The translations under genes and the position numbers were made by a program. 47,192 nucleotides of DNA from an uncultured Bacteroidales bacterium (GTDB lineage Bacteria; Bacteroidota; Bacteroidia; Bacteroidales; FEN-979): NCBI GenBank assembly GCA_903845055.1, contig CAIMWF010000045.1:1-47192 (forward strand), given 5' to 3'. The stretch's first letter is position 1. Every line of letters starts with the position of its first letter. A model generated the notes under the pieces. That model had not been told where the DNA came from. It saw nothing but the letters and a program-made list of their open reading frames with translations, and made no database searches. Of this stretch, positions 14,077 to 47,192 are shown in pieces.

Positions 14077-14100
14077 CACCCCCAAAAAAACATTCTTATC

Positions 14101-16176: not shown

Positions 16177-16179
16177 ACA

Positions 16180-16512
16180 TCAATCCCTGTTATAATGGGG
16201 CATTTCGAAGGGAATCTCGAGCGAAAGCTCGACGATTCCCCTGAATTCGCCGCCGGCAAACCAGGGCGACTGGTAAATGATCTTCTTCTTTCCCCGTTTC
16301 TCGATGGTATACACATTTTTCTTCCCGCTTGTCATGATCTCCAGGATCTTTTTCCTGGACGATTCCGAATGACATTCCAGCAGGTCCCTGCCGATCAACT
16401 CCTTTCCCCCGTCCTTTTCATAGTTTGACAGTGCATGCTCATTCATATAAATGATCCTGCATTCGGCATCGCTTACGATCACATTCCCGTCGAGTTTTTC
16501 AATCCATTCCAT
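16180..16512 (-). CDS. Single PAS-domain protein
   Basis: A 110-residue protein that is essentially one PAS fold: an N-terminal LDGNVIVSDAECRIIYMN pair of strands, an ELIGRDLLECH loop and C-terminal strands. PAS domains sense redox state, light or small ligands. There is no kinase, cyclase or DNA-binding domain attached, so it would have to act through a partner. Similar lone PAS proteins with a CH motif are found in anaerobes. It is convergent with fusA; no clear promoter was seen. Confidence 0.75.
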   Translation of the reverse strand: MEWIEKLDGNVIVSDAECRIIYMNEHALSNYEKDGGKELIGRDLLECHSESSRKKILEIMTSGKKNVYTIEKRGKKKIIYQSPWFAGGEFRGIVELSLEIPFEMPHYNRD

Positions 16513-16552
16513 AGAAAGATAGTTTCTGCAAAATTAGAGAGGTTTTGGAAAT

Positions 16553-31761: not shown

Positions 31762-32447
31762 GCATCGGTCGGCTGAAGTTTCCCGGCGGCGAGCCGGTAT
31801 CTTTTCTGCATGAGCGAGGCAATCTCCGGCGAATGGGTCACCACCACCAGGGCAAGATTTTCTTCGCGGTTCAGTTCGCGCAGCAATTGTCCGAGGTTGG
31901 CAGCATTGGCTGCGTCGAGCGAACCCGTGGGTTCATCGGCAAGCAGGAGCCGCGGCTGGTTGACAAGGGCCCTTACCACTGCGGCCCGCTGGCATTCGCC
32001 CACCGACAGCATGCCGGGCAACCGGTTGGAATGGTTCGCAAGCCCAACCCGTTCGATGAGCCGCCGGGCGCGAATGACAGCCTCTTCCCGTTTACCTTTA
32101 TCCCTGACAGGCACCAGGGGAAGCAGTATGTTTTCAAGCAATGTTAGCTGCGGCAGCAGGCAATGCTGCTGGAACACGAACCCGATGAAGCGGCTGCGTA
32201 TGGCGGCAAGCCCGTTTTCATCAAAAAGGTTCACCCCCGTTTCATTGAGGATCACCTCACCGGATGACGGATGGTCAAGCGTTCCGAGGATGTTGAGCAG
32301 GGTGCTTTTCCCGGATCCGGAGGGTCCGGTAATCGCTATCGATTCATGCTCCCCGACGGCCATGGATACCTCGTCCAGGATGAGGCTGAAATTACCTGCG
32401 CCTTTTTCCCCGTAATACTTGGTAATGTTCTTCAGTTCTGCCAGCAT
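31758..32447 (-). CDS. MacB/LolD-type ABC ATPase with altered signature motif
   Basis: A 229-residue ATPase: Walker A GPSGSGKST (41-49), Q loop in FVFQQH (91-96), Walker B LLLADEP (167-173) with TGSLDA, switch His in VVTHS. The ABC signature reads LSVGECQ (147-153) instead of LSGGEQQ; Val replaces the first Gly and Cys a Gln. It is translationally coupled to the giant permease and starts 3 bases after the glycosyltransferase stop. Confidence 0.88.
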   Translation of the reverse strand: MLAELKNITKYYGEKGAGNFSLILDEVSMAVGEHESIAITGPSGSGKSTLLNILGTLDHPSSGEVILNETGVNLFDENGLAAIRSRFIGFVFQQHCLLPQLTLLENILLPLVPVRDKGKREEAVIRARRLIERVGLANHSNRLPGMLSVGECQRAAVVRALVNQPRLLLADEPTGSLDAANAANLGQLLRELNREENLALVVVTHSPEIASLMQKRYRLAAGKLQPTDA

Positions 32448-32450
32448 ATT

Positions 32451-33740
32451 TTACCTGATAACCTTTTCGTAAACCTTCAACATTTGTCCTGTGAGTTTTT
32501 TGCAGTCGAATTTTTCCTCCACCGACCTTCTGCCAACCCGGCTCATCCGGTCAAGTGCTGCGGCGTCCGAAAGGACCCCCGCCAGACAGTCGGCCAGCGC
32601 TTCAGCCGTATTCGGATGATACAGCACTCCACCGCCCGTGGTCAAGACGATCTCGGGGAATGCCCCCAGTTCGGGTTGAACGATGGGCACCCCCGATGCC
32701 AGCGACTCTACCTGGTACAATCCGAAAGCCTCCCCCTTCAACACCGGCACAGAAAGGAGGGTAAGAGCATTGAAAAAAGCGGCCAGGTTTCCGGGTGTGA
32801 AATCAGGAAGAATCTCCAGGTGCCTGCCGAGGTTTTTGTTTTCAAGTTTTTTCAACTGCCGGCGCAGGAAGGGTTTGTCATCACCTGTCATGCCGCCGGT
32901 GGCTATCAATACCAGGTCGTTAAAGCGCGGGTCGGCCTTCAGCAGGATAAAGGCATCCACCAGTATCTCAAACCCGTTTTCTTCGCAGATCCGCGACAGG
33001 TAACCGATGGCGCGGGGTGCTAACGCCGGTGGTGAGGTGGAGTAATCAGAAGGTTTTACCCCGATCGGCACGACGGAAATCTTTTCGGCGGGAATGTCCA
33101 TCTTTTCCTGCATCACCCCGGCGAACCAGGAACTTACTGCCACAAAGGCATCAACATCACGTCCCTTTTCAGCCATCAGTTTCCATATCCTGTCAATCCA
33201 GGAGGGTTCCATTGCATCCACCCAGACATCTTCATCCTGCAGCGAGCAGACAATGGGAACACCTACCTCTTCGCGAATCCTTTTTGCCATCCCGAGCAGC
33301 AGCGCGTTTGAAAAATGGACGACATCCGGTTTCTGGTGGTTTTTAAGGAAATCGACCAGGTGATCCAGTTCCCTGTTCTGGTAGCCCTTTTCGCCAAGCA
33401 GCATTGATTCTGTCATCTTTTCAAGTCCCTGGGCCCGGGTGGAGCCCGATTTCCCGGCGGCAAATTTCAGCACCGGCGCCGAATCGAACATACGTTCCAT
33501 CCAGGCCGGCATGTTCCTGAAGATTGGAAACTGCTGCCGCAGGTAAATATTGACCGCACCGTAAAAAACAGGCAGCGCTTCCTTCCCCGCCAGTGCAACG
33601 GAGGTCAGTGGCAGGTACATCGGAAGCACCATGGCGTCGTGTCCGGCCTCCCTGAGCGCCTGTACAAAGGCGCCGTCGCGCAGGCAGTTGCCGCAGTAAA
33701 ATGTGCCGCCGAATCCGGGAACAATGCTGACGATTTTCAT
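32451..33740 (-). CDS. GT4-family glycosyltransferase
   Basis: A 429-residue GT-B glycosyltransferase. The N-terminal half begins MKIVSIVPGFGGTFYCGN with the Gly-rich loop; the C-terminal half has the sugar-nucleotide site with FGLYQVESLASGVPIV (E-x7-E type region). It moves a sugar from a nucleotide donor to an unknown acceptor at the cytoplasmic face. The conserved CGNCLRDGAF segment resembles a Bacteroidota/Chlorobi subgroup often found near transport genes. It lies 59 bases after the PQQ-type gene and 3 bases before the ABC ATPase, suggesting the ABC system may export the product (inference). Confidence 0.85.
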   Translation of the reverse strand: MKIVSIVPGFGGTFYCGNCLRDGAFVQALREAGHDAMVLPMYLPLTSVALAGKEALPVFYGAVNIYLRQQFPIFRNMPAWMERMFDSAPVLKFAAGKSGSTRAQGLEKMTESMLLGEKGYQNRELDHLVDFLKNHQKPDVVHFSNALLLGMAKRIREEVGVPIVCSLQDEDVWVDAMEPSWIDRIWKLMAEKGRDVDAFVAVSSWFAGVMQEKMDIPAEKISVVPIGVKPSDYSTSPPALAPRAIGYLSRICEENGFEILVDAFILLKADPRFNDLVLIATGGMTGDDKPFLRRQLKKLENKNLGRHLEILPDFTPGNLAAFFNALTLLSVPVLKGEAFGLYQVESLASGVPIVQPELGAFPEIVLTTGGGVLYHPNTAEALADCLAGVLSDAAALDRMSRVGRRSVEEKFDCKKLTGQMLKVYEKVIR

Positions 33741-33799: not shown

Positions 33800-34933
33800 T
33801 TACCGTCCGAATGCATATACTTTTCCGTCCCCGGCGCCAACCACGATCATCCCGGCGGTAACCGCAGGCGTGCCCGTCATAGGGCTGCCTATTTCCCAGC
33901 TCCATACGACATTTCCTTTGGGGAGACCGAGCAGCAGGATCATCCCGTCGCCCGATGCAACTACCACCTGGCTGCCGGCGATCACAGGAGAGGCGTCCAC
34001 TTTCCCGTTGGTCTTGTATTTCCATACCACCTTCCCGTCCATTGCGTCAAAGCAGGTAATGTAATGGTTCTGCGACCCGGTAACGATCTTTCCCCCAGCG
34101 GCTGCCGGCGATGCCACGAATGCCCCGCCACCGCCGGTTTTCCACAGAATCTTTTTCAGCCGGGTATCGACGCAGAAAAAGTCGCCGTCGTAATTGCCGA
34201 AAAAGGCCTTGTCGCCTAAAACAGCAGCCGATGCGGGAATATAGGTCCCTACGGCCACCTGGTCTTCCTGTTTCCCGTTGTCGGTCCCCACCAGGTGCAG
34301 GAAACCGTCGCAGCCCCCGAAAATGGCCAGTTTGCCGCTGACGGCCGGGGCCCCGTTGATGTAGTTCCCCGATTCGTATTTCCATATGCCTTTCCCGGTG
34401 GCTGCATCCACGCAGTGAAGGTTGTAATCATAACTGCCAACCAGGATGCAAGTTTGCTTCCCCGAATGGCGTGTTATAAAATTGGCCGAACCCGAAATCT
34501 GACCATCGGTTTTATACTTCCACTTCAGCTTGCCCGAACCGGAATCGACGGCAAAAAGGATGCCCTCGAGCGACCCGAAATATACAGTGTTCCGGAGGAT
34601 CAGCGGCGGTGATTCCACCGAGGTCCCGGCATTGAACTTCCACTTCAGTTTCCCTGCAGTGGTAAGTGCGTAGAGGAATCCGTCGTTTGATCCGATATAG
34701 ATCATATCCCCGCAGATAACCGGCGACGATTTGATGGCGTCCCCGGTTTTATAAGTCCACAGGAGTTTGAATGGAGGCTGAAGGACGACCGGCGTATTAC
34801 CCGTCAACTGTGCATTTCCCCGGTACAGAGGCCAGCAGTCGGCACCGGCAACCTGGGCAGCCACGGAACACCATCCGAAAAGGAAGATAACCGCTGGAAT
34901 TCCGGTCCGGAGGTAGGGGGAAATTTTCATCAT
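33800..34933 (-). CDS. Exported PQQ-type beta-propeller protein 4
   Basis: A 377-residue protein with signal peptide (about 1-26) and seven or eight PQQ-like/BamB-like blades, each with a GKLKWKY- or GKVVWKYKTNG-type W motif followed by SPVI/SSPVI. BamB-like propellers are binding scaffolds; true PQQ enzymes need extra calcium and acidic residues that I do not see, so PQQ binding is not claimed. Its ATG overlaps the stop of the flavoprotein gene (ATGA), tying it to the redox module. It likely works in the periplasm. Confidence 0.82.
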   Translation of the reverse strand: MMKISPYLRTGIPAVIFLFGWCSVAAQVAGADCWPLYRGNAQLTGNTPVVLQPPFKLLWTYKTGDAIKSSPVICGDMIYIGSNDGFLYALTTAGKLKWKFNAGTSVESPPLILRNTVYFGSLEGILFAVDSGSGKLKWKYKTDGQISGSANFITRHSGKQTCILVGSYDYNLHCVDAATGKGIWKYESGNYINGAPAVSGKLAIFGGCDGFLHLVGTDNGKQEDQVAVGTYIPASAAVLGDKAFFGNYDGDFFCVDTRLKKILWKTGGGGAFVASPAAAGGKIVTGSQNHYITCFDAMDGKVVWKYKTNGKVDASPVIAGSQVVVASGDGMILLLGLPKGNVVWSWEIGSPMTGTPAVTAGMIVVGAGDGKVYAFGR

Positions 34934-36555
34934 TTGTTTCTTTCTTCCGCTGTTTTGAATGCAAGCGCACCTGTCGGGCAGCTTTGGACACAGTCGGCGG
35001 CAGCCTTTTGCAAAGCCTCCCGGATGGTTTCATTAAACGGTATGGTGATCCGCACGTCAAATCCACGACCGGCAAAGGTAAGCCCTGTGACCTCACCGTG
35101 CTGTTCCGCTATTTCGATGCACAAACCGCACCGGATGCATTTTTCAGTTTCATAGACCACGGTTTCATGCTGCATCGAACGGCTGAGCCGCCTGCGGTCG
35201 GGACCGGCAAATTTCCTGCGTTGGGCCCCGTATTCATCTGCATACATCCTGAGCTTGCAACTTACCGGTTTCCGGCAGTCGCAGTGCAGGCAGCGTTTTG
35301 CCTCGTGCATAGCCTCCCCGCGGGTAAAACCGGCGCTTTTCCCCCCGGCAGGTTCAACCCGGTGGTCCAGGATGCTCTCCTGCAAATATTCTTGCCACTC
35401 CGGTTCGAAAAGATGCCCGGTAACCGAAACGGAATGGCGTTTTAATCCCTCCGACATGGATGGTCCTGCATCCTGTTTGTTTTTTTGTTGCGCCAGGCGG
35501 CCGCCTGTGTTTTCAATATAACGGATCACCCCGATGGCGGCGGCTTTTCCATGAGCAACCGACTGCACTGCCATTTTTTGTTCACGAATGATGTTGCCGC
35601 ATGCAAAAACACCCGGCACGCCGGTTGACAGGTCCTTCCTGTCAATAAAGGAACCCGTTTTATCGGGAGGAAGTCCGAAAATCGTTCCCGGGTCCTGTTC
35701 CCGGTGACCGGTTGCCAGGATGATGGCATCGTAACCAGGGAGGATAACCTCCTGGAAATAATCCCGGCTGATGGTTGTATTCATCCTGAACTCCCCGCCC
35801 ATCCGGGCTATCGCCAGTATCTCGGCATCCAGCACCTCTTTTGGCAGAACTTCGTCGGGGATGCTGTAACGCATCATCCCGCCTGCTTTTTCCCGCGCAT
35901 CGAACAGCACGCAAGCATACCCCGAAAGCAGGAGGTAATAGGCAGCGGAGAGCCCTGCCGGCCCGGTGCCGATTACCGCGATTCTTTTTCCGTTCCAGTC
36001 TGCCTGGCCCGTGGGGATGCAGGACCCTTCGCAGTGGACGGCAGTTGCACGTTTTAAAAGGCAGATGGACACGGCTGCATCCATCGGCTTCCTTTTGCAA
36101 GCCTTTTCGCATGGGGCAGGACAAATGTACCCGAGGACCAGGGGCAGGGCAATCTCCTCCCTGACGATGGCGAGGGCACGGTCAAAATCACCGGCAGCGA
36201 CCAGGCGGTTCATCAGCGGGATATCCATAAAGGCGGGACAACTTACACGGCACGGCGCCTCACAATCACCGACATGGTCACTGAGCAGCAGTTCGAGGGC
36301 GTCTTTCCGCGCCTCCCTGACTTCATCGGAATTGGTGAGGATGTTCATTCCATCCGCCACCGGCATGGCACATGAAGGAACCAGTTGGTCGCGTTCAATC
36401 TCCTTCACTAGGCAGATCATGCACGAGGGATGGTTGGTACATCCGTCGTGAAAGCACATCGTCGGGATGACGATCCCGGCTGAGGCAGCCGCCTCCAGGA
36501 TGGTCATCCCTTCGTGTACCTCGGCTGGCACCTGATCAATTGTTAGTTTTACCAT
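34930..36555 (-). CDS. Fe-S flavoprotein, StnC/NfnB-like, lacking the NADPH-binding domain
   Basis: A 541-residue fusion: [2Fe-2S] ferredoxin domain (about 1-80; C34, C45, C48, C62), GltD/NfnB-type N-terminal helical [4Fe-4S] domain (C98, C102, C106, C145, C149, C153), FAD domain with VIGTGPAGLSAAYYL (about 194-208) and C-terminal TGVPGVFACGN, then an HndD/NuoG-like Fe-S tail (CIRCGLC at 473-479, CVQSCP at 522-527). In GltD and NfnB a second Rossmann domain for NADPH stands between the ATG (281-283) and the C-terminal FAD segment (about 310); here only about 27 residues remain. Layout is closest to Sporomusa-type StnC. It follows the NuoEF-like gene after 1 base, so the two should form one complex. 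Confidence 0.83.
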   Translation of the reverse strand: MVKLTIDQVPAEVHEGMTILEAAASAGIVIPTMCFHDGCTNHPSCMICLVKEIERDQLVPSCAMPVADGMNILTNSDEVREARKDALELLLSDHVGDCEAPCRVSCPAFMDIPLMNRLVAAGDFDRALAIVREEIALPLVLGYICPAPCEKACKRKPMDAAVSICLLKRATAVHCEGSCIPTGQADWNGKRIAVIGTGPAGLSAAYYLLLSGYACVLFDAREKAGGMMRYSIPDEVLPKEVLDAEILAIARMGGEFRMNTTISRDYFQEVILPGYDAIILATGHREQDPGTIFGLPPDKTGSFIDRKDLSTGVPGVFACGNIIREQKMAVQSVAHGKAAAIGVIRYIENTGGRLAQQKNKQDAGPSMSEGLKRHSVSVTGHLFEPEWQEYLQESILDHRVEPAGGKSAGFTRGEAMHEAKRCLHCDCRKPVSCKLRMYADEYGAQRRKFAGPDRRRLSRSMQHETVVYETEKCIRCGLCIEIAEQHGEVTGLTFAGRGFDVRITIPFNETIREALQKAAADCVQSCPTGALAFKTAEERNK

Positions 36556-36556
36556 G

Positions 36557-38911
36557 TTATTTTACCGAAATTGCATCTTCCGGGCATATCTGTCTGCATA
36601 TATCGCATTTTATGCATTTTTCCGGATCGATCGAATGCACTTCATAGGGTTTGAAGTCAATGGCCCCCGACGGGCAACGCTGGGCACACTTGGTGCAGCC
36701 GATGCACCCTTCGCCGACCTCGTATCGGATCAGCGGGAGGCACTTTCCCGACGGGCAGTGTCCTTGCAGGTGGGCCTCGTATTCTTCGCGAAAATAATGG
36801 AGGGTGGTCAGTACCGGGTTCGGGGCCGTTTTACCGAGCCCGCAGATGCTCCCGCGGGCAGTTGAATGCGCCAGTTTCTCAAGAATGTCCAGGTCCTCTC
36901 TGACCCCCCGGCCGCTCCTGATTTTATCCAGCAACCCGAGCATCCTGCGCGTGCCGATCCTGCAGAAGGTGCATCGGCCGCACGACTGATTCTGGGTAAA
37001 GGAAAGAAAATAATGGGCAATGTCGACCATACAGTCCGACTCGTCGAGCACAATCAGTCCGCCCGAGCCCATCATGGTACCTGCCTCCTTCAGTGCTTCA
37101 AAATCAATGGCCATGCCTGCCGCAGATGCAGGCAGGCACCCCCCGGATGGCCCCCCGATCTGGACGGCTTTAAATGTTTTATTCCCGGCGATCCCGCCCC
37201 CGATCTCTTCGACGATCTGCCGGATGGTGATCCCCATGGGTACCTCGATAAGCCCCCCGCGCCTTACCTTGCCGGCCAGTGCAAATACTTTCGTGCCCTT
37301 GCTTCCGGCAGTTCCGATGGCGGAGAAGGCGGGAGCGCCATGGCGTATGATCCAGGGGACAAGCGACAGGGTTTCGGTATTGTTGATCAACGTCGGCTTA
37401 TCCCACAACCCCTTTTCAACCGGGTAGGGCGGCCGCATTCTTGGAAGCCCGCGTTTCCCCTCGACGGAGGCGATCAGGGCGGTTTCTTCGCCGCAGACAA
37501 AGGCACCGGCCCCGCCAAATATCCTGATGTTAAATGTGAAGTCCGAACCCAGTACAGAGGTTCCCGCGATCCCGTTTGCCCTGCATATATCCAGGGCTTC
37601 ACCGATCCGCAACATGGCCAGCGGGTATTCGGCCCTGATGTAGAAAATGCCCTGGGAAGCACCCGCGGCATAGCCCGCGATGAGCATCCCCTCGATGATA
37701 CGGAAGGGATAAGATTCGAGCAGCATGCGGTCCATGAAAGCACCGGGGTCACCCTCATCGCCGTTGCAGATGACGGTTTTTTCAGTGGCCTGCTGGTCCC
37801 TGACCATTTGCCATTTCCGGCCGGTCGGAAAGCCTGCACCGCCCCGGCCGCGAAGTCCGCTGCCGGTTATCTCGTCAACCACCTGCTGCGGAGTCATCCG
37901 TTCCAGGCATCTCCTGAGCGATTCGAATCCCCCGGTACGACGGTATCCTTCAAAGTCGACCGGGTTGGTGACCCCGCGGTTCTCGGTGGCGATGTTCACC
38001 TGGGGCCCGAGAAAGTCCGACAATGGCGTATCGCGCTGCTCGGCCATGTATTTCCTGAAGGATTTAGGGGCGCCGTTGGCAACCATTTGGTCGAATATGT
38101 TATAAAACCTGCTGCGGAAACGATTGACCCAGCCCTCAGGCCTGAAATGGCTCAGCAGGACCTCCCGCACCTCTTCTGGCCTGATTTTGGCATAATAAGC
38201 CGGTTGTTCACCCGGCTTGAGTATCTCCATGATGGGAACCTGGTTGCAGATGCCGACACATCCTACCTGTTGTACGTCCACAAGGATTCCCGACGCTGCC
38301 AGCGTCTTTTCGAGTTCGGCCTTTACCTCTGAACTGCCGCTCGCAACACAACAGGATCCAAGCCCTATGCGGACCTCTCCCTGGAACCCCGAACGGGTTG
38401 ATGCGGGATTGTTAACAACGGTATCATGCTTGTTCCTCGAGAGGAAATCGCGCAGCAACCCTCCGACATTTCCGGGTTCGACATGTCCGTAAGTCACTTC
38501 ATCAACCCGTACGACCGGCGCCAGGGTACAGCAGCCCAGGCAAGCCACCTTTTCGATGGTGAAGCGCATTTCGGCATCGGTATCTTCCGATTCCTTCAGT
38601 TTCAGTTCGCGCCTGAAAGCCTCATAAACGAACAACGCCCCCTTTACATGGCAGGCGGTGCCGGTACAAACCCTGATGCGGTGTTTCCCGGCAGGCTGAT
38701 GCCTGAACTGGGTATAAAAGGTCGATATTCCCGAAATGGCAGAAGGAGTAATTTCAGTGGTTTCGCAGACCCGCTTCAGGGCGGCTACCGGGAGGTAGTT
38801 AAAGGTCTCCTGGAGCTCCTGCAGGATGGGAATGACGGCATCAGCCGACTTCCCGTGGCGCGATACCACGAGGTCGACTTTTCCGGCTGACTGCTGGTCG
38901 CTGAACTCCAT
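36557..38911 (-). CDS. NuoE-NuoF-ferredoxin fusion, NADH dehydrogenase of bifurcating type
   Basis: A 784-residue fusion. Residues 10-165 are NuoE/HndA-like with [2Fe-2S] ligands C82, C87, C124, C128. Residues 178-255 are a second thioredoxin-like [2Fe-2S] domain (C187/C188, C218, C222). Residues about 330-690 are NuoF/HndC-like with NADH loop GRGGAGFPTGRKW, FMN site NGDEGDPGAFMDR and the [4Fe-4S] motif SCGRCTFCRIGT. The end has two [4Fe-4S] ferredoxin motifs (CIGCTKCAQRCP, CIKCDICRQICP). Such subunits take electrons from or to NADH in hydrogenases, formate dehydrogenases and bifurcating transhydrogenases. ATG 38911 is chosen: an AGGTAAG ribosome site precedes it and the longer frame overlaps the MaoC gene. 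Confidence 0.92.
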   Translation of the reverse strand: MEFSDQQSAGKVDLVVSRHGKSADAVIPILQELQETFNYLPVAALKRVCETTEITPSAISGISTFYTQFRHQPAGKHRIRVCTGTACHVKGALFVYEAFRRELKLKESEDTDAEMRFTIEKVACLGCCTLAPVVRVDEVTYGHVEPGNVGGLLRDFLSRNKHDTVVNNPASTRSGFQGEVRIGLGSCCVASGSSEVKAELEKTLAASGILVDVQQVGCVGICNQVPIMEILKPGEQPAYYAKIRPEEVREVLLSHFRPEGWVNRFRSRFYNIFDQMVANGAPKSFRKYMAEQRDTPLSDFLGPQVNIATENRGVTNPVDFEGYRRTGGFESLRRCLERMTPQQVVDEITGSGLRGRGGAGFPTGRKWQMVRDQQATEKTVICNGDEGDPGAFMDRMLLESYPFRIIEGMLIAGYAAGASQGIFYIRAEYPLAMLRIGEALDICRANGIAGTSVLGSDFTFNIRIFGGAGAFVCGEETALIASVEGKRGLPRMRPPYPVEKGLWDKPTLINNTETLSLVPWIIRHGAPAFSAIGTAGSKGTKVFALAGKVRRGGLIEVPMGITIRQIVEEIGGGIAGNKTFKAVQIGGPSGGCLPASAAGMAIDFEALKEAGTMMGSGGLIVLDESDCMVDIAHYFLSFTQNQSCGRCTFCRIGTRRMLGLLDKIRSGRGVREDLDILEKLAHSTARGSICGLGKTAPNPVLTTLHYFREEYEAHLQGHCPSGKCLPLIRYEVGEGCIGCTKCAQRCPSGAIDFKPYEVHSIDPEKCIKCDICRQICPEDAISVK

Positions 38912-38924
38912 CTTACCTGAATGA

Positions 38925-39389
38925 TCAGACAAAATGATAGAGAAAGACAATGGTGGCGTCGAACGCCGGTTTCGCGTTGTCTTTGATTTCAAGCGAAACA
39001 TGGACCTCTGCCTTGGCAATTCCCCGGAGGTTGACCAGGGAGGCAAGTGTTGCCCTCACCCTAACTTCACTGTCGACCAGCACCGGCTGGTTGAACCGGA
39101 GTTTTTCGATGCCGTAGTTGACCAGCATCTTGATGTTGTTCACCTCGATGATCTGTCCCCACAGGTAGGGCAGCACCGACAGGTTGAGGTAACCATGGGC
39201 AATGGTCGTTTTGAAAGGGCTTTCTTTTTCGGCCCGTTCACGGTCAAGGTGGATCCACTGGTAATCGAGCGTGGCCTCCGCGAATTTGTTGATCTGTTCC
39301 TGCGTGATTTTCAAATAATCCGAGATGCCCAGCTCCTTCCCGATATACTGTTCAAATTCAGCAAAGCTGTTTATGATTAATTTACCCAT
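38925..39389 (-). CDS. MaoC-like hydratase/dehydratase
   Basis: A 154-residue hot-dog-fold protein of the MaoC/NodN (R-specific enoyl-CoA hydratase) type. The active-site stretch ATLDYQWIHLDRERA holds the Asp and His of the hydratase motif, and FKTTIAHGYLNLSVLPYL is the usual following segment. It would add water to an enoyl-CoA or similar thioester in the cytoplasm. It ends 13 bases before the NuoEF-like start, so it is co-transcribed with the redox genes; whether it shares their pathway is unknown. Confidence 0.87.
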   Translation of the reverse strand: MGKLIINSFAEFEQYIGKELGISDYLKITQEQINKFAEATLDYQWIHLDRERAEKESPFKTTIAHGYLNLSVLPYLWGQIIEVNNIKMLVNYGIEKLRFNQPVLVDSEVRVRATLASLVNLRGIAKAEVHVSLEIKDNAKPAFDATIVFLYHFV

Positions 39390-39509
39390 TGGCGCTTTTT
39401 TAAACTGTAAAACTATTTCTGAACAACACCCCGCTTGAACGGCCCGGGGATTAAATCCTGTTAAAGATAACGCAATTCATCCGTTTTTAATACATCAACC
39501 CAACGCCTC

Positions 39510-39517
39510 CAAAAATA
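39510..39517 (-). promoter_or_regulatory. Possible -7 element upstream of the MaoC-NuoEF segment
   Basis: TATTTTTG on the minus strand matches TAnnTTTG, about 120 bases before the MaoC ATG. No -33 element was found at the expected distance. Confidence 0.3.
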
Positions 39518-39537
39518 CTGCTTTATTCGCCTCCCGG

Positions 39538-39600
39538 CATTACCTGCATTATCATCATTGTTTGCATTGCCTGCATTGTTTAAATTGTTTACATTCATTT
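39538..39600. repeat. AATGCARRY 9-bp microrepeat in a gap
   Basis: On the minus strand about six degenerate 9-base units (AATGCAGGC, AATGCAAAC) begin right after the stop of the membrane propeller gene. The 22-base core is shared exactly with 40815-40855 (coding) and with the adhesin repeat near 1267. Confidence 0.8.
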
Positions 39601-39601
39601 A

Positions 39602-41389
39602 TCAGGGTTTCCCTATACAAAACAAACTCTTATCTCCCCTGATCACGATCCTGCCGCTGGCAAAAGCCGGCGTGCAAACCGATCCTTCGCCCAGCTGCGG
39701 TTCACCAACAACGGCATAGGTCTGATCGGCCTTCACGATATGCATGACCCCTTTTTTATCAAGCAGGTAAACCTTCCCGTTGGCCAGGATCGGCGAGGCG
39801 TAAATGGGGGTATCGTACTCATGAACCCAGTATTTTGTTCCTTTCCTGGCATCGTAGCAGACAACGGTGCCATAGCTGGTCGCGAGGAAAAGGTATTTCC
39901 CGGTCGCCAGCGGACTGGGAATATCCGACAGGTACTCGTTATCCTCCCAGAGCAATTTCGGCGGATCGCCGATCTCCACTGCTGCCAGTTTTGCATAATC
40001 GTTCACGGAGAACACAACGCCGTCGGCATAAGCGACCGACGGGCCAACTTCGCCCGAGATACATTCCATTTTCCACAATTCCTTTCCATCAGCAGGGTTG
40101 TAGGAGGCCACAAGCGGATCGGCCACCAGGATCAGTTCCATCCGGCTGCCGGTATTTACAAGGATCGGGGAGGCCCATGAAATCCTGACATTGCGGCTTG
40201 TCTTCCACGCCACCTCCCCGGTTTTTCCCGAAAGGGCCATCACACAGCCAGCCCCCCGCTGGTCATACTGGATGATCAGCAGGTCGTGGTACATGACCAA
40301 AGAGGAGGAATGGCCGTAATGGTTTGCCGGCAGGCCGAGGTTTTTCGCCCAAACCTTTTTCCCGTCCATATCCAGGGCAATGAGGTCCCCGTTGGCAAAG
40401 ATGGCATAGACCCGGCGCCCGTCGGTGGTCATGGTCGGCGCGCACTGTCCTGTTTCCTTATTGACGACAGGAGCCTTTGCCGGAGTCCCCTGTATCTTAT
40501 CCACGGGAAATTTCCAGATTATTTTTCCCGAATTCAGGTCGAAACAATAAACCTCCCTTGTGGTTTCACTTGCACCGGTGAGGAAAACACGATCGTTCCA
40601 GATGATGGGAGAGTTGAATCCCGGCAGGGGTACCTCCGTTTTCCAGAGGATGTTTTTCATGCCCTTCCCGTCCCAGGAGGTGGGGGTGTTTTGCTTTAAG
40701 GCGATCCCGTCACCACCGGGCCCCCTGAAAGAGGCAAAGTTGGCATTGATCTCCTGCGCCGAAGGATAACCCTCCGTCACCACCGCAACAGCCACCCTCC
40801 TTTTGCCGGAATCAGCATTGTCTGCATTACCTGCATTGTTTGCATTGCCTGCATTAAAAGTTGCGTTATTTCCCCCCATTAAAAGTCCCGCCGGCTCCAG
40901 CCTTTTCCCAAGTTCAAGATGGGTAAGGGTGCCCAGTACCAGTGCCAAAACTACGATACCGATCCCCGTATAGGCCACCCAACTCCGGTTTATGTTCCGA
41001 TCATTCCAGAAATCGGTTTTTTCGCCCTGAGGCGCCTCCGGGACCGGTTTTTCACGCATTTCGAGGTATTTCAGGCAGATCACCGCGATGAGCAGGCTGA
41101 AAAAGAGGAGATATCCGCCCATGCGCACCTGCCACTGTGTGGTAAAGAAGGCTTTGCGTGCCAACAGGTCGAGCTCGCGTATCTGCTGGCGGAGCTGATC
41201 ATCGCCCGGGTTCCCCTGCAGCCGTTCAACCAGCGCCTTCATGACCGGCGTGTTGAGCGGATCGGTTCTTTTAACCTGGATGTAATTGACGACGATCAAA
41301 ACACACATTACCATCGCGAAGACCGCACTGATCAGCGCAACGGTCCGGAACAACCCGCGATGGCCGGTATCGTGATTATTTTTCATCAT
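39602..41389 (-). CDS. Membrane-anchored PQQ-type beta-propeller protein 3
   Basis: A 595-residue protein with three N-terminal membrane helices (about 14-36, 88-108, 139-160), an Asn-Ala-rich linker (about 175-195, NAGNANNAG type) and a PQQ-like propeller (about 215-595) with FRGPGGDG near its start and blades marked by GKIIWKF, GKKVWAK, GEVAWKT and GKELWKM. The propeller should face the periplasm, held to the membrane beside the NapH-like protein, whose gene overlaps by 4 bases (ATGA). The linker is encoded by a 9-bp repeat found elsewhere in the window. No PQQ or heme site is evident. Confidence 0.82.
   Translation of the reverse strand: MMKNNHDTGHRGLFRTVALISAVFAMVMCVLIVVNYIQVKRTDPLNTPVMKALVERLQGNPGDDQLRQQIRELDLLARKAFFTTQWQVRMGGYLLFFSLLIAVICLKYLEMREKPVPEAPQGEKTDFWNDRNINRSWVAYTGIGIVVLALVLGTLTHLELGKRLEPAGLLMGGNNATFNAGNANNAGNADNADSGKRRVAVAVVTEGYPSAQEINANFASFRGPGGDGIALKQNTPTSWDGKGMKNILWKTEVPLPGFNSPIIWNDRVFLTGASETTREVYCFDLNSGKIIWKFPVDKIQGTPAKAPVVNKETGQCAPTMTTDGRRVYAIFANGDLIALDMDGKKVWAKNLGLPANHYGHSSSLVMYHDLLIIQYDQRGAGCVMALSGKTGEVAWKTSRNVRISWASPILVNTGSRMELILVADPLVASYNPADGKELWKMECISGEVGPSVAYADGVVFSVNDYAKLAAVEIGDPPKLLWEDNEYLSDIPSPLATGKYLFLATSYGTVVCYDARKGTKYWVHEYDTPIYASPILANGKVYLLDKKGVMHIVKADQTYAVVGEPQLGEGSVCTPAFASGRIVIRGDKSLFCIGKP
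40815..40855. repeat. AATGCARRY 9-bp microrepeat in coding sequence
   Basis: Five consecutive units (minus strand AATGCAGGC, AATGCAAAC, AATGCAGGT, AATGCAGAC, AATGC) encode the Asn-Ala-x linker of the membrane propeller. Confidence 0.85.
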
Positions 41390-42672
41390 GGTTTTACCTC
41401 CTTTGTGCCGTTTTTTTCAACAGGACAGTAATCGACGCACCGGGCGCAACTGAAACAGGCCCCTTTGTTCGGCGTGTAATCAGTACTGTAACGGGTCAAA
41501 AGGCGCCCGGCAAGGATCATCCCGAAAACCAGGCCAATAAAGCACCCCAGTAACCATCCCCCTGTGTAAAAACGGCGGAGTACCCCGGCCGCCTCGTCAT
41601 ACACCACCGTGAGTGGTTTTCCCGACGATTTGTAAGCCGTCACTTCAAACGGTTCAGGCTGGTCCCTGTATCTTTCGGGTTCAAGCAATATTTTTGCCAG
41701 GCGGACTTTCCCGTTCACTCCCGCAAGTGTTTCGTGCAGCCGCGAACCCGTCCAGCCGCCCAGCACAATGAAAAAGGGAACCAGGAGTGAAACCAGGATC
41801 AGTTTCCGCGCGGTAACGGAGCGCCCTTCGGGATTCAGATCCACGACAGGGATGTCGATTGCGTCGTAAGGGCATGATTCTTCACACAACCTGCACTGGA
41901 TGCATTTATCGGGTGTGATCGTAAGATGGCGCCACGAAAAACGGCTGGCCCAGTTGAGTAAAACTCCGTAGGGGCAAAGGTAACGGCAGTAAGGCCTGGC
42001 GATAAAAATTCCCGAAACCAGCAGTGTTCCCGAAAAGATGAGCATGCCGAAGGAAGCGTTGAACCTGAAAATCCCGACGAAAGGATCGTACCGGCATATG
42101 ATGAAATCGGAGCCGGTGGCAGCGTAGAGTACTGCCAATCCAAGGTAGATGTATGGCATCATCCCCAGGACCGCATTCAGCCTGGGGTCGGGTTTCTGGG
42201 GCCTGAAGGAGACCAGGTCCTGCATCGCGCCGAAGGGGCACACCCCGGCGCAGAAGGTACGGCCGAAAAACAGGGTGAACACCAGGGGAAGGATGAAGAA
42301 TGCCAGCACGGCGAGCGGGATGACATAGCTTTTGTCAAACAGGGCCAGGGTGACATTCTGGATCGCCCCGATGGAACAAACACATCCCTGGCGGTAAAAT
42401 CCGAAATAGGCAAGCGAAAAAACAGAGGTCCAGAAGACCCCGGTACGTGACCGTTTTTTCAGCACCAGCCATGAAACCAGGGCCAGGGCCAGGGCAAGCA
42501 CCGAAACATCCATGATGGCCAGCAGCCCGGCACGGGCAGAGGGTTGCAGGGTTTCAGGCTGCAGGTAACCCGATTCAAAATCGGGCTTTGGGAAACGCTG
42601 CACGCCATACGCATTCATGAACTGAAGGCTAAGAAGAACAACGAAAATAAAAATGACCCGGATTTTTTTCAT
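41386..42672 (-). CDS. NapH/NosR-like membrane Fe-S protein
   Basis: A 428-residue polytopic protein. Features in order: signal/first helix (4-20), helix (about 50-70), a GCVCSIGA turn (97-103), helix, FCAGVCPFG (C141, C145), helices, YCRYLCPYG (C229, C233), a four-Cys cluster CIQCRLCEESCP (257-267), helix (about 289-306), a soluble stretch (about 310-370), helix (about 372-390) and a last cluster CFSCARCVDYCP (406-416). Members of this family (NapH, NosR, CcoG, RnfB-like) move electrons between quinol or flavin and periplasmic partners. ATG 42672 (MKKIRVIF) begins the first helix; the upstream in-frame codons look non-coding. Confidence 0.87.
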   Translation of the reverse strand: MKKIRVIFIFVVLLSLQFMNAYGVQRFPKPDFESGYLQPETLQPSARAGLLAIMDVSVLALALALVSWLVLKKRSRTGVFWTSVFSLAYFGFYRQGCVCSIGAIQNVTLALFDKSYVIPLAVLAFFILPLVFTLFFGRTFCAGVCPFGAMQDLVSFRPQKPDPRLNAVLGMMPYIYLGLAVLYAATGSDFIICRYDPFVGIFRFNASFGMLIFSGTLLVSGIFIARPYCRYLCPYGVLLNWASRFSWRHLTITPDKCIQCRLCEESCPYDAIDIPVVDLNPEGRSVTARKLILVSLLVPFFIVLGGWTGSRLHETLAGVNGKVRLAKILLEPERYRDQPEPFEVTAYKSSGKPLTVVYDEAAGVLRRFYTGGWLLGCFIGLVFGMILAGRLLTRYSTDYTPNKGACFSCARCVDYCPVEKNGTKEVKP

Positions 42673-42870
42673 TTGTTTACTTAATGGCCTGCATGGTGGC
42701 CAGCATGACTTTGAAATACGCGGTGACATTTCAAAAAATTAACCACGGAGGCGCAAAGAAGGAGGGAGGGTACGGAGGGATCCCCTGGCAGTTTCATGTT
42801 TGCTTTTCTTTTTGTCCTCATTGTTTTTCCTCTGTATCTCCGCTGTAAAAAAACGAACCCCGCATGCCAC
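42673..42870. other. 198-base operon gap with a degenerate repeat
   Basis: The gap between the polyferredoxin and NapH-like genes has no ORF on the minus strand. Around 42738-42762 the minus strand reads CTTTGCGCCTCCGTGGTTAA, which resembles another dispersed short repeat type. No promoter consensus was found. Confidence 0.4.
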
Positions 42871-43461
42871 TCAACCGCCCGATTTAGGCCCCTCCAGCGT
42901 AATCTGTTTCAGCAGGTAGGGCTTTTTTGCCGGGACCCGGCTGAAGGCTTCGGCAGGGCAGCTGCGGGCAATGGAGCACTGGTTGCAGTGCACGCAGATA
43001 TTCTGCCTTACCTGCAGTTGCAGCGATCCGTTTCCGAACGCCCCGCATCCCTTCACGCATTTCCCGCAACCGATGCATAAAGGCTCGTCAATGGTGTATT
43101 CAAAGAAGGGATCTTCCACGAATTTCCTTTTGATGGCATTGGTCGGGCAAAGCTGGTTTTCGGCCGCTGTATTGAGCGTTTTCGTTCCTGGTTTGAAATA
43201 TCCCCCGCACAGGTCGCAATAGCCGCACATGGCATAGACGTGCGTGCATCGAACGGCAGAGTGGGCCAGCACGCAGTTGGTTGCGCAGCGGCCGCACTGG
43301 ATGCACTTCGAGGGATCAAGCTGCCATACCGTTTCCCCGGAACCGGATTTTTCAGCCACCAGCACGGCGAGACCGCCCAGGCCCAGGAATGCCGTAACCC
43401 GGATACTCCTAACAATAAATTCCCTGCGGTTCAGTTTTGGATCACCTGCTGTTTCTTCCAT
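42871..43461 (-). CDS. Tat-type polyferredoxin (NapG-like)
   Basis: A 196-residue protein with a twin-arginine-type start (NRREFIVRSIRV, Arg12-Arg13) and one hydrophobic segment, followed by about four Cys clusters: CIQCGRCATNC, CGYCDLC, CIGCGKCVKGC and CVHCNQCSIARSCP. It should carry several [4Fe-4S] clusters and be exported folded by Tat, then stay tethered to the membrane. In NapGH systems the pair passes electrons from quinol to a periplasmic enzyme; here the NapH-like gene follows. It overlaps the small Cys-rich gene by 20 bases. Confidence 0.88.
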   Translation of the reverse strand: MEETAGDPKLNRREFIVRSIRVTAFLGLGGLAVLVAEKSGSGETVWQLDPSKCIQCGRCATNCVLAHSAVRCTHVYAMCGYCDLCGGYFKPGTKTLNTAAENQLCPTNAIKRKFVEDPFFEYTIDEPLCIGCGKCVKGCGAFGNGSLQLQVRQNICVHCNQCSIARSCPAEAFSRVPAKKPYLLKQITLEGPKSGG

Positions 43462-43726
43462 CGCTTTTCAAGGTTTTTGCTGATCCCGGTTTTTCCTGCC
43501 TGAATTTTCCTGCCTCAGGCAATCCGCAGCATTCCGACAGGCTGCAGGCACCGCACTGGTAAGCCCTGTCACATGGGTCCGATTTTTCCCACCGGCTGAT
43601 CAACACGCCGCTGCCAAATGCCAGCAATGCAAGCATCCCTCCCCGTGCGAGCGTGGAAAAAAAAGCACGCCTGCTTTGCTTTTCCTCCTGCCGGTCTTGC
43701 TGCTGATTCATGATATTCGTTTTCAT
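43442..43726 (-). CDS. Small Tat-type Cys-rich protein, unknown family
   Basis: A 94-residue protein with a clear twin-arginine signal (SRRAFFSTLARGG plus a hydrophobic stretch to about residue 44) and a short mature part holding five Cys in the pattern C-x6-C-x2-C-x4-CC (DPCDRAYQCGACSLSECC). The mature part is too small for an enzyme; it could hold an Fe-S cluster or metal, or help assemble the polyferredoxin encoded next. Its ATG overlaps the NHL gene stop (ATGA) and its 3' end overlaps the polyferredoxin by 20 bases. I do not recognise the family. Confidence 0.75.
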   Translation of the reverse strand: MKTNIMNQQQDRQEEKQSRRAFFSTLARGGMLALLAFGSGVLISRWEKSDPCDRAYQCGACSLSECCGLPEAGKFRQEKPGSAKTLKSDGRNSR

Positions 43727-44688
43727 TGTTTCGGGACAAAGATTCTTACCTGGTTCCGCTCCGGATCGAGCACCAGGATCCGGTCTCTTGAATCGACCGC
43801 GAGGTCAAGCCCCCGGGTTCCTTCGGTAAACGATTCGGGGGTGGCCACCAGGAACCTGAACTCACCTTTCGGCGAGTAGATCTTTACACGCTCGATGGCC
43901 TTTTCGGAGGTCACGAATGAGCCATCGGAAAGCAACGCAAAATGCGAGGGATTGCAGCAACCGCAAAAGCCATCCACCGCCATGGTTGCTTTTCCCCACG
44001 AGCCGAGGATCGCCCCTTCACGGGAGAATTTCTCCAGCAGGTGGCGGCCCGGGTTAACCACCCAGAGCGCCCCGCCCGGGTCGGTGGCCAGGTCGAACCA
44101 GGGGCTTGGTACAACAAACCCGGGAACACTGTCGCGGGGATCCTTCTCGCCGATCTTACGGATCAACTTCCCGGAATGATCATACCGGTAAACAATTTTA
44201 TTCCCGGCATCGGCAATGTATATATCATCGGTTGTGACGGCAATGGAAGTAATGATGGCTTCGGGTGCGCAGCTTTTCCATTGGTTCACCCTGATCCCCT
44301 GGTGGTTGTAAATTTCAAGGTGATCCTCCATGCCCAGGTAGATCAGTCCGTCCTTGTCCACATGGATGCAGCGCGCAGAACCTCCGATGCGGAATGCCGA
44401 TTCGCGCTTCCCTTCCCGGTTGTACAATTCAACGCCCCCGTCTCCGGCAATATATATCCTGTCGGACCGGTCGACAGCAAGACCGTGGATGGAGGTCAGC
44501 ACGGGTTTGATCTGCTGCACCTCGCGATACTTCGCTAAAAGTGTATCGGCGCTCCTGATGGCTTTCATGTCGTAGGCATATGGATTCACCCCTGGTTCGG
44601 GATGGCTGAAAAACATGTCCCACAGCATGAACAGGATTCCTGCCGAGAGGAATACCAATGCCGTGACCAGGTATCTTTTCTGTTTCAT
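43723..44688 (-). CDS. Membrane-anchored NHL/6-bladed beta-propeller with CGCC motif
   Basis: A 321-residue protein with an N-terminal membrane anchor (about 6-27) and six NHL-type blades (ITSIHGLAVDRSDRIYIAG style) facing the periplasm. A special loop, VDGFCGCCNPSHFALL (about 240-255), carries three Cys and a His inside a blade where ordinary NHL repeats have none, suggesting a metal or disulfide site. It starts 1 base after the PQQ-type gene stop and overlaps the Tat-type small gene, so it is part of the same unit. The role is unknown. Confidence 0.8.
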   Translation of the reverse strand: MKQKRYLVTALVFLSAGILFMLWDMFFSHPEPGVNPYAYDMKAIRSADTLLAKYREVQQIKPVLTSIHGLAVDRSDRIYIAGDGGVELYNREGKRESAFRIGGSARCIHVDKDGLIYLGMEDHLEIYNHQGIRVNQWKSCAPEAIITSIAVTTDDIYIADAGNKIVYRYDHSGKLIRKIGEKDPRDSVPGFVVPSPWFDLATDPGGALWVVNPGRHLLEKFSREGAILGSWGKATMAVDGFCGCCNPSHFALLSDGSFVTSEKAIERVKIYSPKGEFRFLVATPESFTEGTRGLDLAVDSRDRILVLDPERNQVRIFVPKQ

Positions 44689-44689
44689 C

Positions 44690-46120
44690 TTATTTTGCTT
44701 TAATATCCAGACAAACCAATTGCTTTGAATCGCGCATCAGCAGGAATCCGCCGGTAATGGCCATGGGCCCCCACGAATCCTGCCCGTCGATGATCCTTGC
44801 TTTATCCAGCACCGTGAACCGTGAACTGGTGGCAGTGGCGATCGTCATCTCGCCATCGTCGTTCAGGATGAAAAACTTCCCGTCGGCCAGGATATAAGGT
44901 CCCAGCCCAAAGCGGTCGGTTTTCCCGCTGCTCATGATAATTTTCCTGCAGTCCCCCGGTCTACAGCAGGCAAGCTGGTTGCGCAGCCCCCCTGCATCCT
45001 TGGGAAGGATACCGTACACGCAACCTCCCGAAAAAATGGGGGTTTGCTGTTCTGATGCCATCCCCTCCTGCGGTTTGAACATCTGCACGATCTCAACATT
45101 GAATTTCCCGGTTGTCCCGGTAACCTGCAGCAACGCCGACCCGGCCCCGTATCCTGCCGTTACAAGGATCTTCCCGTTATCCAGGATCACCGGGGAGGGG
45201 GCCACGACCGACGGCGAAAACGCCGTTGTTTCCCACAATACCCGGCCCCTGTCGGCTCCCGAGGCAGCGATGGCGCAAACCCCGCCGATGGCGCAGTAAA
45301 CATACATTTTTTTTTCCTGGAAAACCATGGGCATCACCGAAGCGTGCGACATTTTCCATCCCCGGGGGTTTGGTGTCTCCCATAGTTTTTTCCCTGTATT
45401 GCAATCGAATGCGGCCAGGATCGCCTTCCCCCCTGTAGCAATGACGGCTGTGTCCTGGTCAAGCAACGGGCATTGCCCGGTATACCAGAACGGGATTTCG
45501 GAGTTGTATTCCTTTTCAATATCAACACCCCACAGGAAATCTCCGTTCCCGCGTTTCACGCACATCACCTGGCAACGCGGGCCGATGGTCAGGACAAATT
45601 TATCGTTCACGGCCGGGATGGTCCTCGACAGCCCGTGGTTTCGTTTGAGGTGAACCTTATACCCCCTCCGCCAGAGCTCCTCTCCGGTGGTAAGCAGTAA
45701 ACACCGCAGCTGGTCCGTTTTACTGCTTTCGTCGTAATCGAGCAGGTAGACCTTCCCCCGGTATACCGCGGGTGCCGCATGTCCGTCGCCTACCGGGATC
45801 TTCCAGAGAATGCTGGGTCCCTCCTTACCCCAGTGACCGATCAGCTTTACCGGCTCCCGGCATATGTTGTCAAAACCGGATCCCCTGAAGCGTGGCCAGC
45901 TGGTTCCTGGAATATCCTCTACCGCCTTGAAAAATTTGAATTCCGAACCGATTTTAACCGCTTCCTGCGAGGCGGGGCTGCCTTTTTTGCGGTTATCCAT
46001 CCCGGGAACCGAAATGTTAAAACTTTTTACCGGGTCAAAGAAATACCACCAGGCCGTCAGTGCCAGGGCCACGCCAATAAATACCAGCAGTATGAGCCTT
46101 GCGGGATCCTTCTTAAACAT
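44690..46120 (-). CDS. Membrane-anchored PQQ-type beta-propeller protein 2
   Basis: A 476-residue protein with one N-terminal anchor helix (about 10-27) and a periplasmic PQQ-like propeller. The propeller opens with WPRFRGSGFDN, akin to the WPxFRGP start of this subfamily, and blades carry ILWKIPVG, ELWRRGYK, FLWGVDIE and KLWETPNP. There are several scattered Cys (for example CQVMCVKRG and CRPGDCRK) but no CXXCH. It sits between another propeller gene upstream (163-base gap) and the NHL gene (1 base). Confidence 0.83.
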   Translation of the reverse strand: MFKKDPARLILLVFIGVALALTAWWYFFDPVKSFNISVPGMDNRKKGSPASQEAVKIGSEFKFFKAVEDIPGTSWPRFRGSGFDNICREPVKLIGHWGKEGPSILWKIPVGDGHAAPAVYRGKVYLLDYDESSKTDQLRCLLLTTGEELWRRGYKVHLKRNHGLSRTIPAVNDKFVLTIGPRCQVMCVKRGNGDFLWGVDIEKEYNSEIPFWYTGQCPLLDQDTAVIATGGKAILAAFDCNTGKKLWETPNPRGWKMSHASVMPMVFQEKKMYVYCAIGGVCAIAASGADRGRVLWETTAFSPSVVAPSPVILDNGKILVTAGYGAGSALLQVTGTTGKFNVEIVQMFKPQEGMASEQQTPIFSGGCVYGILPKDAGGLRNQLACCRPGDCRKIIMSSGKTDRFGLGPYILADGKFFILNDDGEMTIATATSSRFTVLDKARIIDGQDSWGPMAITGGFLLMRDSKQLVCLDIKAK

Positions 46121-46283
46121 CCGAGTTTATCCTCTGTAAATGAACTGCTAAGGTACTTGAAAATTTCACAGGAAGTTTTTTCCGCGGGGAATTCAAACTC
46201 AATCTGAATAAGTATCACCCTGGTCAGCTCCCTCCTGCATTGTAAGGGAGGGGAAGCCGGTGACCGGCGGAACGCGGGACCGG
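46121..46283. other. Intergenic gap between two propeller genes
   Basis: This 163-base stretch has a short hairpin on the minus strand (CCCTCC and GGAGGG around 46231-46254) without a T run, and a near -7 box TACCTTAG (46148-46155, one mismatch to TAnnTTTG) without a -33 element. A new promoter for the downstream genes is possible but not established. Confidence 0.35.
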
Positions 46284-47192
46284 TTATTTCCTGCGGATAT
46301 CGTAAGCCACCAAGGCTTTGCCGTGACGGATGTACAAAACACCCTTATGAATGACCGGATGTGAAAAATGTTCTTTGGTCCCATCGGAAATTTTAAAGGA
46401 AGAGAGCACCTCCAGTTTCTTCGGGTCGGGTTTGACAAGTTTCATCTCCCCGCGCTGGTTGTAGTAATACAGCAGGTTGTCGGCCCAGATGATTGACCCG
46501 GCACCGCATTTCAGCGAATCGGTTACCTGGCCCGTCCCGGCATCCACGCATACCAGCTGCTTCTTTTCGGAAAGGCAGGAATAGAGATAATTGCCAACCT
46601 TTACAAAGCCTCCCATGTAATTGTCGATCGCCTTGTTACGCCATTCCTGGGTGATCTTTTTTCCGTCGTCGGAAAGACGGAGCTTCACGGCGCAGTTCCC
46701 GTCGCCTGCAATGTAGTAGATGAAACCGTTTTCATACAGAACCGTGTTGCTGTGGGTATCGCCGTTCCCGGGAGCGCGCTGATCAACCGGGATGTTGTCC
46801 TGGTCGTGCATCCAGAGGAGCTGCCCGTTGGCTGCATCGATTCCCAGCATAGTATAGGCGGTGAAGGTGACAAGCACATTCCGCTCCTTCAACCTGACCA
46901 GGTAAGGTGAATTATAACCGGGAACCTCCGGGTGGGCCTTGCAGACCCAGGCGGTCCTGCCGGTGAAGCGGTTCAGCGCCACCACGCTGGTATCGGCGCC
47001 ACCGGTGACCAGGAATACTTTATCGCCTTCCACCACCGGCGATTCAGCCTGGCCGTATCTTGTGAACCGGCCGTGAAGATCGTGGCACATGTCGGCAAAC
47101 CATTTTCTCTCCCCTGTTTTTACATCCATGCAGGAGAGGTTCCCAAGTCCCGAACACACGTAAACGAGATCACCCGCGACCGTGGGGGCACA
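46284..47192 (-). CDS. PQQ-type beta-propeller protein 1 (5' end outside window)
   Basis: The frame stays open to the window edge, so at least 302 residues of a longer protein are seen; the GTG at 47159 is internal. The blades show the PQQ-like/BamB-like pattern (GERKWFAD, GRTAWVCK, GQLLWMHD) and typical turns such as SPVVEGDKVFLVTGG. It resembles the other propellers of this locus. The N-terminal export signal must lie beyond the window. Its C terminus ends YDIRRK. Confidence 0.8.
   Translation of the reverse strand, partial: CAPTVAGDLVYVCSGLGNLSCMDVKTGERKWFADMCHDLHGRFTRYGQAESPVVEGDKVFLVTGGADTSVVALNRFTGRTAWVCKAHPEVPGYNSPYLVRLKERNVLVTFTAYTMLGIDAANGQLLWMHDQDNIPVDQRAPGNGDTHSNTVLYENGFIYYIAGDGNCAVKLRLSDDGKKITQEWRNKAIDNYMGGFVKVGNYLYSCLSEKKQLVCVDAGTGQVTDSLKCGAGSIIWADNLLYYYNQRGEMKLVKPDPKKLEVLSSFKISDGTKEHFSHPVIHKGVLYIRHGKALVAYDIRRK

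Follow-up and report, generated by a model that had tools for sequence, protein, structure and literature searches.

A conserved gene block of anaerobic bacteria pointing to a probable membrane-linked Bfu-family complex with exported iron-sulfur proteins and beta-propellers

Enzymes of the Bfu family have been sorted by their third substrate, and 17 clades of their BfuB subunit are without an assigned function (PMC9304861; this paper, like PMC10482914 and PMC8238504 below, is cited from excerpts). The described member closest to the locus reported here is the Stn/Nfn-Bfu transhydrogenase (StnABC of Sporomusa ovata, 8oh5, PMC10482914; 9n5u). The window analyzed is the whole of contig CAIMWF010000045.1 (C45; 47,192 nucleotides), from the draft genome (3.95 Mb, 175 contigs) of an uncultured Bacteroidales bacterium. 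Genes on its minus strand are transcribed in the order P (cut by the contig end), P2, NHL, Tat94, Fes, NapH, P3, a MaoC-like gene, NuoEF, GltD-like, P4, and genes for a glycosyltransferase, an ABC ATPase, and an FtsX-type permease. P to P4 are beta-propellers of the type known from pyrroloquinoline quinone (PQQ) enzymes. We give a probability of roughly 0.55 to the reading that the locus encodes one membrane-linked complex of the Bfu family with an extracytoplasmic third partner, its propellers lying outside. This is the simplest reading because of the linkage of the genes, their co-occurrence among genomes, the loss of a domain, and several gene fusions.

Comparison with described electron-transfer systems

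NuoEF unites the NuoE- and NuoF-type subunits that are also present in Stn/Nfn-Bfu, and its best solved relatives are Nfn-Bfu (9n5u_B), 9bov_B, and Stn (8oh5_B). Over its 784 residues, counted from the ATG at 38911, matches to PF01512, PF10589, and ferredoxin domains exceeded the cut-off, and the SLBB match stayed below (22.9 against 27 bits). The BfuBC core and its cluster ligands are shared with the Bfu family (PMC9304861): the cysteine ligands of BfuB and BfuC are kept in 81-82 of 82 NuoEF sequences, and at the Bfu-specific B2 site, as defined in PMC9304861, a histidine and three cysteines are invariant across these 82. The GltD-like protein is a BfuA homologue by its domains (PF13510, PF22117, and PF14691, all over the cut-off), and the third subunit of Stn/Nfn-Bfu likewise consists of a [2Fe-2S] domain, a GltD-type Fe-S domain, and an FAD fold. 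Judged by sequence, NuoEF and the GltD-like protein are a module of the Bfu type (HydABC/Stn). This likeness was missed in an earlier note on the window, which knew of no described system with such a set. A description of the complete set was indeed not found in searches of open-licence PMC full text, nor is the combination among the Bfu types described in the excerpts of PMC9304861.

In contrast to Stn, the GltD-like protein has neither the NADP-binding insert nor the C-terminal FdhF-like domain (541 vs. 1172 residues), and the module is linked to membrane and exported proteins. The window protein aligns to residues 13-288 of StnC and again to 419-674, leaving about 130-150 residues of the StnC GltD-like region (taken from PMC10482914) without a counterpart. 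In 75 length-filtered sequences, the glycines flanking the insert site are separated by 1-70 residues, and the FAD-fold glycines are kept in all 75. The NADP motif is absent from all 61 GltD open reading frames (ORFs) that span both halves (no length filter; ORFs were taken from the named loci defined below and from further loci sharing genomes with them, so some genomes are counted twice). An unrelated GltD protein of locus L076 and that of the divergent locus L157 served as positive controls for the motif. Another difference separates the locus from [FeFe] HydABC, whose third subunit has an H-cluster domain that the third subunit of the locus lacks; PF02906 was found in none of the scanned locus proteins. 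Compared with the proposed membrane-bound Nuo-Bfu and Mbh-Bfu (PMC9304861), the membrane part consists of one NapH-like protein with exported Fe-S proteins and propellers, and not of complex I-like or hydrogenase subunits. The genome holds further Bfu-type sets, one of them with an FeFe hydrogenase (separate HydA on contig C147). In another, on contig C158 of the same genome (G000:C158; L181:2-652), the GltD-type third subunit is cut by the contig end.

The membrane and exported part resembles the NapGH/MauMN quinol dehydrogenase modules, in which a multi-cluster ferredoxin exported by the twin-arginine (Tat) route likewise adjoins a NapH-like membrane protein. However, NapH scored far below the NapH/MauN cut-offs (TIGR02163, 51.4 against 213 bits; PRK09477, 44.9 against 234 bits) and Fes far below that of NapG/MauM (TIGR00397, 16.7 against 178.9 bits), an extra C-terminal ferredoxin motif is present, and the locus contains no nitrate reductase or amine dehydrogenase. 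The same type of membrane protein (PF12801) occurs in flavinylated extracytosolic systems, for which it has been proposed as the transmembrane electron carrier (PMC8238504). Those systems include an FMN-binding partner, whereas none was matched among the scanned proteins of the locus, a count that covers the locus and not the whole genome. The locus is not a Stn transhydrogenase, since the NADP insert is missing, nor, by the models used, is it NapGH or a PQQ dehydrogenase.

Conservation and linkage of the gene set

A scan of genome contigs matched at least 590 stretches. The named loci are the 80 most similar to the window among at least 573 related stretches; linkage counts from them lean toward close relatives, and each neighbour count leaves out loci with insufficient sequence. 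Next to Fes, these loci carry P2 in 59 of 62 cases, NHL in 70 of 72, NapH in 68 of 68, P3 in 61 of 62, NuoEF in 52 of 54, GltD in 44 of 48, and P4 in 37 of 46. The NapH-like and NuoEF genes are thus not found apart in most relatives, a separation that the earlier note had named as evidence against a system. By record title, which can be wrong for draft genomes, the 80 loci are mostly from Bacteroidales or Bacteroidetes; the other titles are Prolixibacteraceae, Cyclobacteriaceae, KSB1, Aminicenantes, Acidobacteria, Calditrichaeota, Chlorobiota, and Alphaproteobacteria.

Fes was present in 44 of the 100 closest relatives and in only two of 295 genomes drawn evenly from the class, one of which is the window's own. 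Further afield, L142 and L149 were placed in one phylum (Fes in 3 of 149 genomes) and L120, L124, L132, and L139 in another, distant one (18 of 82). Twelve loci of the latter phylum have at least 7.5 kb of downstream sequence; by hand count, NuoEF follows in 11 and GltD in 10. One of the twelve, L184, is broken into short frames, and NapH and P3 were not recognized there. As the earlier note had expected of a true system, more than five genes stay together in distant genomes. Chance is excluded because gene order is conserved: the locus is real and conserved, and is kept in many anaerobic bacteria, most of them uncultured. Nine genomes carrying the locus gave a single match each; two (G298 and G325) gave two, where one of the extra matches is a diverged copy (36%) and the other a fragment located on a different contig. 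No relative of the locus was found on viral contigs.

Presence of NuoEF follows that of Fes. In a hand comparison of the 100 relatives, a NuoEF match of at least 54% identity was listed in 43 of the 44 genomes with Fes vs. none of the 56 without (among the matches listed, down to about 555 bits; four were partial or split). In the single exception, G315, Fes sits on a 7.8-kb contig. The remaining listed NuoEF matches are 41-53% identical.

Gene fusions join parts of the set. Tat94, Fes, and NapH form a single polypeptide in three genomes (L088, L108, and L052), two of which are among the 19 named loci with Tat94 fused to Fes. In L103, GltD and P4 share one frame and are joined via a hydrophobic stretch, and NuoEF of L157 opens with a stretch of two helices that is related to the P3 N-terminus (E-value 4.5e-5 for the excised hairpin and 0.0012 at full length, ranking first after P3 itself). 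Together, the fusions in L103 and L157 suggest a membrane location of the bifurcating module. L157 is also compact: its 20 kb read contain neither P paralogues nor a P3 propeller, and P4 and the glycosyltransferase are missing there too. Comparison with this locus suggests that loss of NADP binding accompanied the full propeller set, in an order of events that we infer. Gene set and order, cofactor ligands, domain loss, and fusions are all read from the sequences.

A putative transmembrane electron path and its alternatives

In the proposed complex, one FMN and the Fe-S clusters of NuoEF would be where electrons are exchanged with NADH and ferredoxin. Within the GltD-like subunit they would move through Fe-S clusters and an FAD; because its NADP-binding insert is lost, this subunit would hand them to the NapH-like membrane protein, which may pass them to the two Tat-exported proteins, Fes and Tat94. 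Together with these two, the propellers of NHL and PQQ type might act as a scaffold or as the site of an external substrate; no catalytic center of known type was recognized in the block. We infer complex formation, each electron step, their direction, and the role of the propellers. A path from cytosolic NADH or ferredoxin through the membrane Fe-S protein to the exported ones had been put forward in the earlier note, and co-occurrence, fusions, and the lost NADP insert back it; the part given there to the propellers stays an assumption. The preferred direction is outward, with NADH and reduced ferredoxin confurcated to an extracytoplasmic acceptor, since such anaerobes must dispose of both. 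Only tentatively do we propose the fuller picture of a cytochrome-free exchange with the outside, in which a confurcating Bfu module, a membrane Fe-S protein, and a periplasmic apparatus of Fe-S proteins and beta-propellers would act in series in several phyla of anaerobes.

Several observations weigh against a single complex. L197, from the distant phylum, has no NuoEF within 11.7 kb, and in L079 and L088 NuoEF does not adjoin P3 but lies 12.4 kb further on or on another contig. The fifth ligand position of the B2 site varies among the 82 sequences (Arg, 45; Cys, 19; Thr, 13). The telling fusions come from one draft genome each, L103 and L157, and the match of the hairpin is of modest strength. 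Moreover, L157 retains a GltD with the NADP domain, and L158 has an NHL-Fes-NapH set without NuoEF. These last two observations would fit two independent neighbors, one a soluble enzyme like Stn and the other an exported set of Fe-S proteins and propellers, yet the co-occurrence of NuoEF with Fes among the matches listed, the interleaved order P3-NuoEF-GltD-P4, the fusions across the two sets, and loss of the NADP insert in the main form make such a coincidence quite improbable.

More room is left for the same complex working in reverse, with the outside site oxidizing an external donor and the Bfu core bifurcating its electrons to NAD+ and ferredoxin. In favor of this direction, propellers of the PQQ type are a typical feature of oxidases. 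Bfu enzymes are moreover reversible, most known ones taking electrons from a mid-potential donor (PMC9304861), and systems of the NapH type support external oxidases and reductases alike (PMC8238504). The block, however, encodes no known oxidase or cofactor, and no PQQ synthesis gene exceeded the cut-off, so that we regard reversal as doubtful. Instead of serving energy metabolism, the locus might provide reducing power for building the cell envelope or for repairing proteins, its BamB-like propellers being scaffolds. The glycosyltransferase, ABC ATPase, and FtsX-type permease conserved downstream and the BamB-like fold predicted for P2 speak for such a role, but a bifurcating core coupled to ferredoxin and NADH would be a costly source for repair, and the flanking genes are absent from the 20 kb read of the compact L157; on balance this appears unlikely.

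Replacement of Rnf by the locus was considered and rejected. By hand comparison, RnfC occurs in 9 of the 44 genomes with Fes and 41 of the 56 without, and none exceeded the cut-off in the window's genome. Shared descent explains most of this pattern, because RnfC is rare within the window's family with or without Fes (3 of 43 genomes; 1 of 35 and 2 of 8, respectively, vs. 47 of 57 elsewhere in the order), and outside the family it is kept in 8 of the 9 genomes with Fes.

The locus is a concrete candidate, kept in many genomes, for a Bfu enzyme with an extracytoplasmic third partner, and it suggests transmembrane electron movement without cytochromes. Two of the records bear strain names in their titles, Perlabentimonas gracilis M08_MB and Gaoshiqia sediminis A06; if the strains are obtainable, tests in culture are conceivable.

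Layout of the locus and features of its proteins

The features of the locus are collected in Table 1. ORFs and Pfam matches bear out the gene content given in the earlier note (all on the minus strand: four PQQ_2-type propellers, an NHL propeller, two Tat-type Cys/Fe-S proteins, an Fe-S flavoprotein, a fusion of NuoE, NuoF, and ferredoxin parts, and a NapH/NosR-like membrane Fe-S protein), and no CxxCH heme motif occurs in the 14 locus proteins checked. The spacing is less tight than it had stated: five of the ten junctions in its range are of 4 bases or fewer, and 198, 212, and 163 bases lie between Fes and NapH, P3 and the MaoC-like gene, and P and P2. Its lower limit at 33800 also proved too narrow, as the conserved run extends into the glycosyltransferase, ABC ATPase, and FtsX-type permease genes (28420-33740), whose order is kept in many relatives. 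The MaoC-like gene was found in the locus of two close relatives only (85-88% identity) and is probably a recent insertion.

Table 1. Features of the locus in the window (positions from the first base of the contig)
Feature	Description	Position	Strand	Support
P	Exported PQQ-type propeller, truncated by contig end	46284-47192	-	PF13360, 79 bits
P2	Propeller with single N-terminal anchor helix	44690-46120	-	PF13360, 59.9 bits; model pLDDT 89
NHL	NHL propeller with N-terminal anchor and conserved GCCNP motif	43723-44688	-	PF01436
Tat94	94-residue twin-arginine protein with C-x5-C-x2-C-x5-C type motif	43442-43726	-	
Fes	196-residue twin-arginine exported ferredoxin, 16 conserved Cys	42871-43461	-	Fer4 matches
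NapH	NapH/NosR-like membrane Fe-S protein	41386-42672	-	PF12801, 60.2 bits; longer frame from 42729
P3	Three predicted N-terminal membrane helices, then propeller	39602-41389	-	Hydropathy; PF13360, 100 bits
MaoC-like	Gene between P3 and NuoEF	38925-39389	-	Also in two close relatives (85-88% identity)
NuoEF	BfuC-BfuB fusion with C-terminal double [4Fe-4S] ferredoxin domain	36557-38911	-	PF01257, PF01512, PF10589
GltD-like	Fe-S flavoprotein (BfuA/StnC-like) without NADP-binding insert	34930-36555	-	Split alignment to StnC
P4	Exported propeller	33800-34933	-	PF13570, 198.6 bits, over cut-off
Glycosyltransferase	Conserved flank	32451-33740	-	Pfam
ABC ATPase	Conserved flank	31758-32447	-	Pfam
FtsX-type permease	Conserved flank	28420-31761	-	Pfam

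The first propeller of the earlier note is real but incomplete. Over exactly 141 bases, the right end of contig C141 and the end of the window are identical. Contig C141 completes P at its 5' side and adds two full paralogues (the three stretches are L001:13505-14722, 14796-16013, and 16068-16538); the P paralogues on C141 are 40-48% identical. Upstream of them lie a DUF6483-like gene, a 4HBT-type gene, and O-antigen genes. A known terminal reductase just outside the window, which the earlier note had allowed for as another explanation of the set, was not found on this upstream continuation, and the gene families that recur across 122 loci include no reductase and no partner beyond the listed block.

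Twin-arginine signals were detected in Tat94 and Fes, and hydrophobic helices in NapH, P2, NHL, and P3. Besides Fer4_5 motifs and two motifs of ferredoxin type, the NapH-like protein contains the invariant cysteines C116, C118, and C212 (numbering of the 447-residue frame; length-filtered alignment). In its structural model (predicted local distance difference test, pLDDT, 79; 428-residue numbering), the first two invariant cysteines map to the break that separates helix 76-93 from helix 100-112, and the third falls within a short helix (191-195); as modeled, they could form a membrane-embedded cluster site. No Foldseek match was obtained for this model at an E-value of 0.001. Sixteen cysteines of Fes are conserved at 99-100% (107 sequences, length-filtered alignment), a number that would suffice for four [4Fe-4S] clusters. 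No Pfam or NCBIfam match was found for Tat94. Of the 80 loci, 35 have its module as a separate gene and 19 as a fusion with Fes; the pattern used did not find it in the other 26.

P2 is 47-79% identical across 44 aligned sequences and has many invariant polar residues, a degree of conservation beyond what we would expect of a plain spacer. The solved folds closest to its model are BamB and tetrathionate hydrolase (template modeling score by query 0.52-0.61), from which it differs in sequence (12-17% identity among the 50 matches listed; BamB model, 32.5 against 285 bits). A PQQ enzyme as the catalyst was rejected, as TIGR03075 gave at most 68.5 against 480 bits and the best PqqE-model match in the 95%-complete genome reached 58 against 381 bits; PQQ could come from outside. 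The number of P propellers per locus ranges from 0 to 6 (48 loci with 9 kb upstream). The GCCNP motif of the NHL protein is conserved at 97% or more in 111 sequences (length-filtered alignment) and recurs in the NHL protein of the NuoEF-free set of L158. This set (L158:1367-5888) is a second kind of NHL-Fes-NapH set and includes a PhnD-like protein; its NHL domain is fused to an N-terminus that we take to be DUF4369/TlpA-like.

Two side observations concern translation. The Fes gene of L157 (L157:11905-12495) has an in-frame TGA at 12130, exactly at a cysteine invariant in the family (Cys82 in the window), and a SelB gene over the cut-off is present in that genome. The sequence after the TGA forms a hairpin no stronger than those of shuffled sequences (z = -0.6); the codon may encode selenocysteine. 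In the window itself, frames of 711 and 710 residues at 3617-5752 (minus strand) and 14044-16176 (plus strand) give weak matches to a profile of SelB, a translation GTPase (33 and 30 bits), and may represent two translation-factor-like GTPases.

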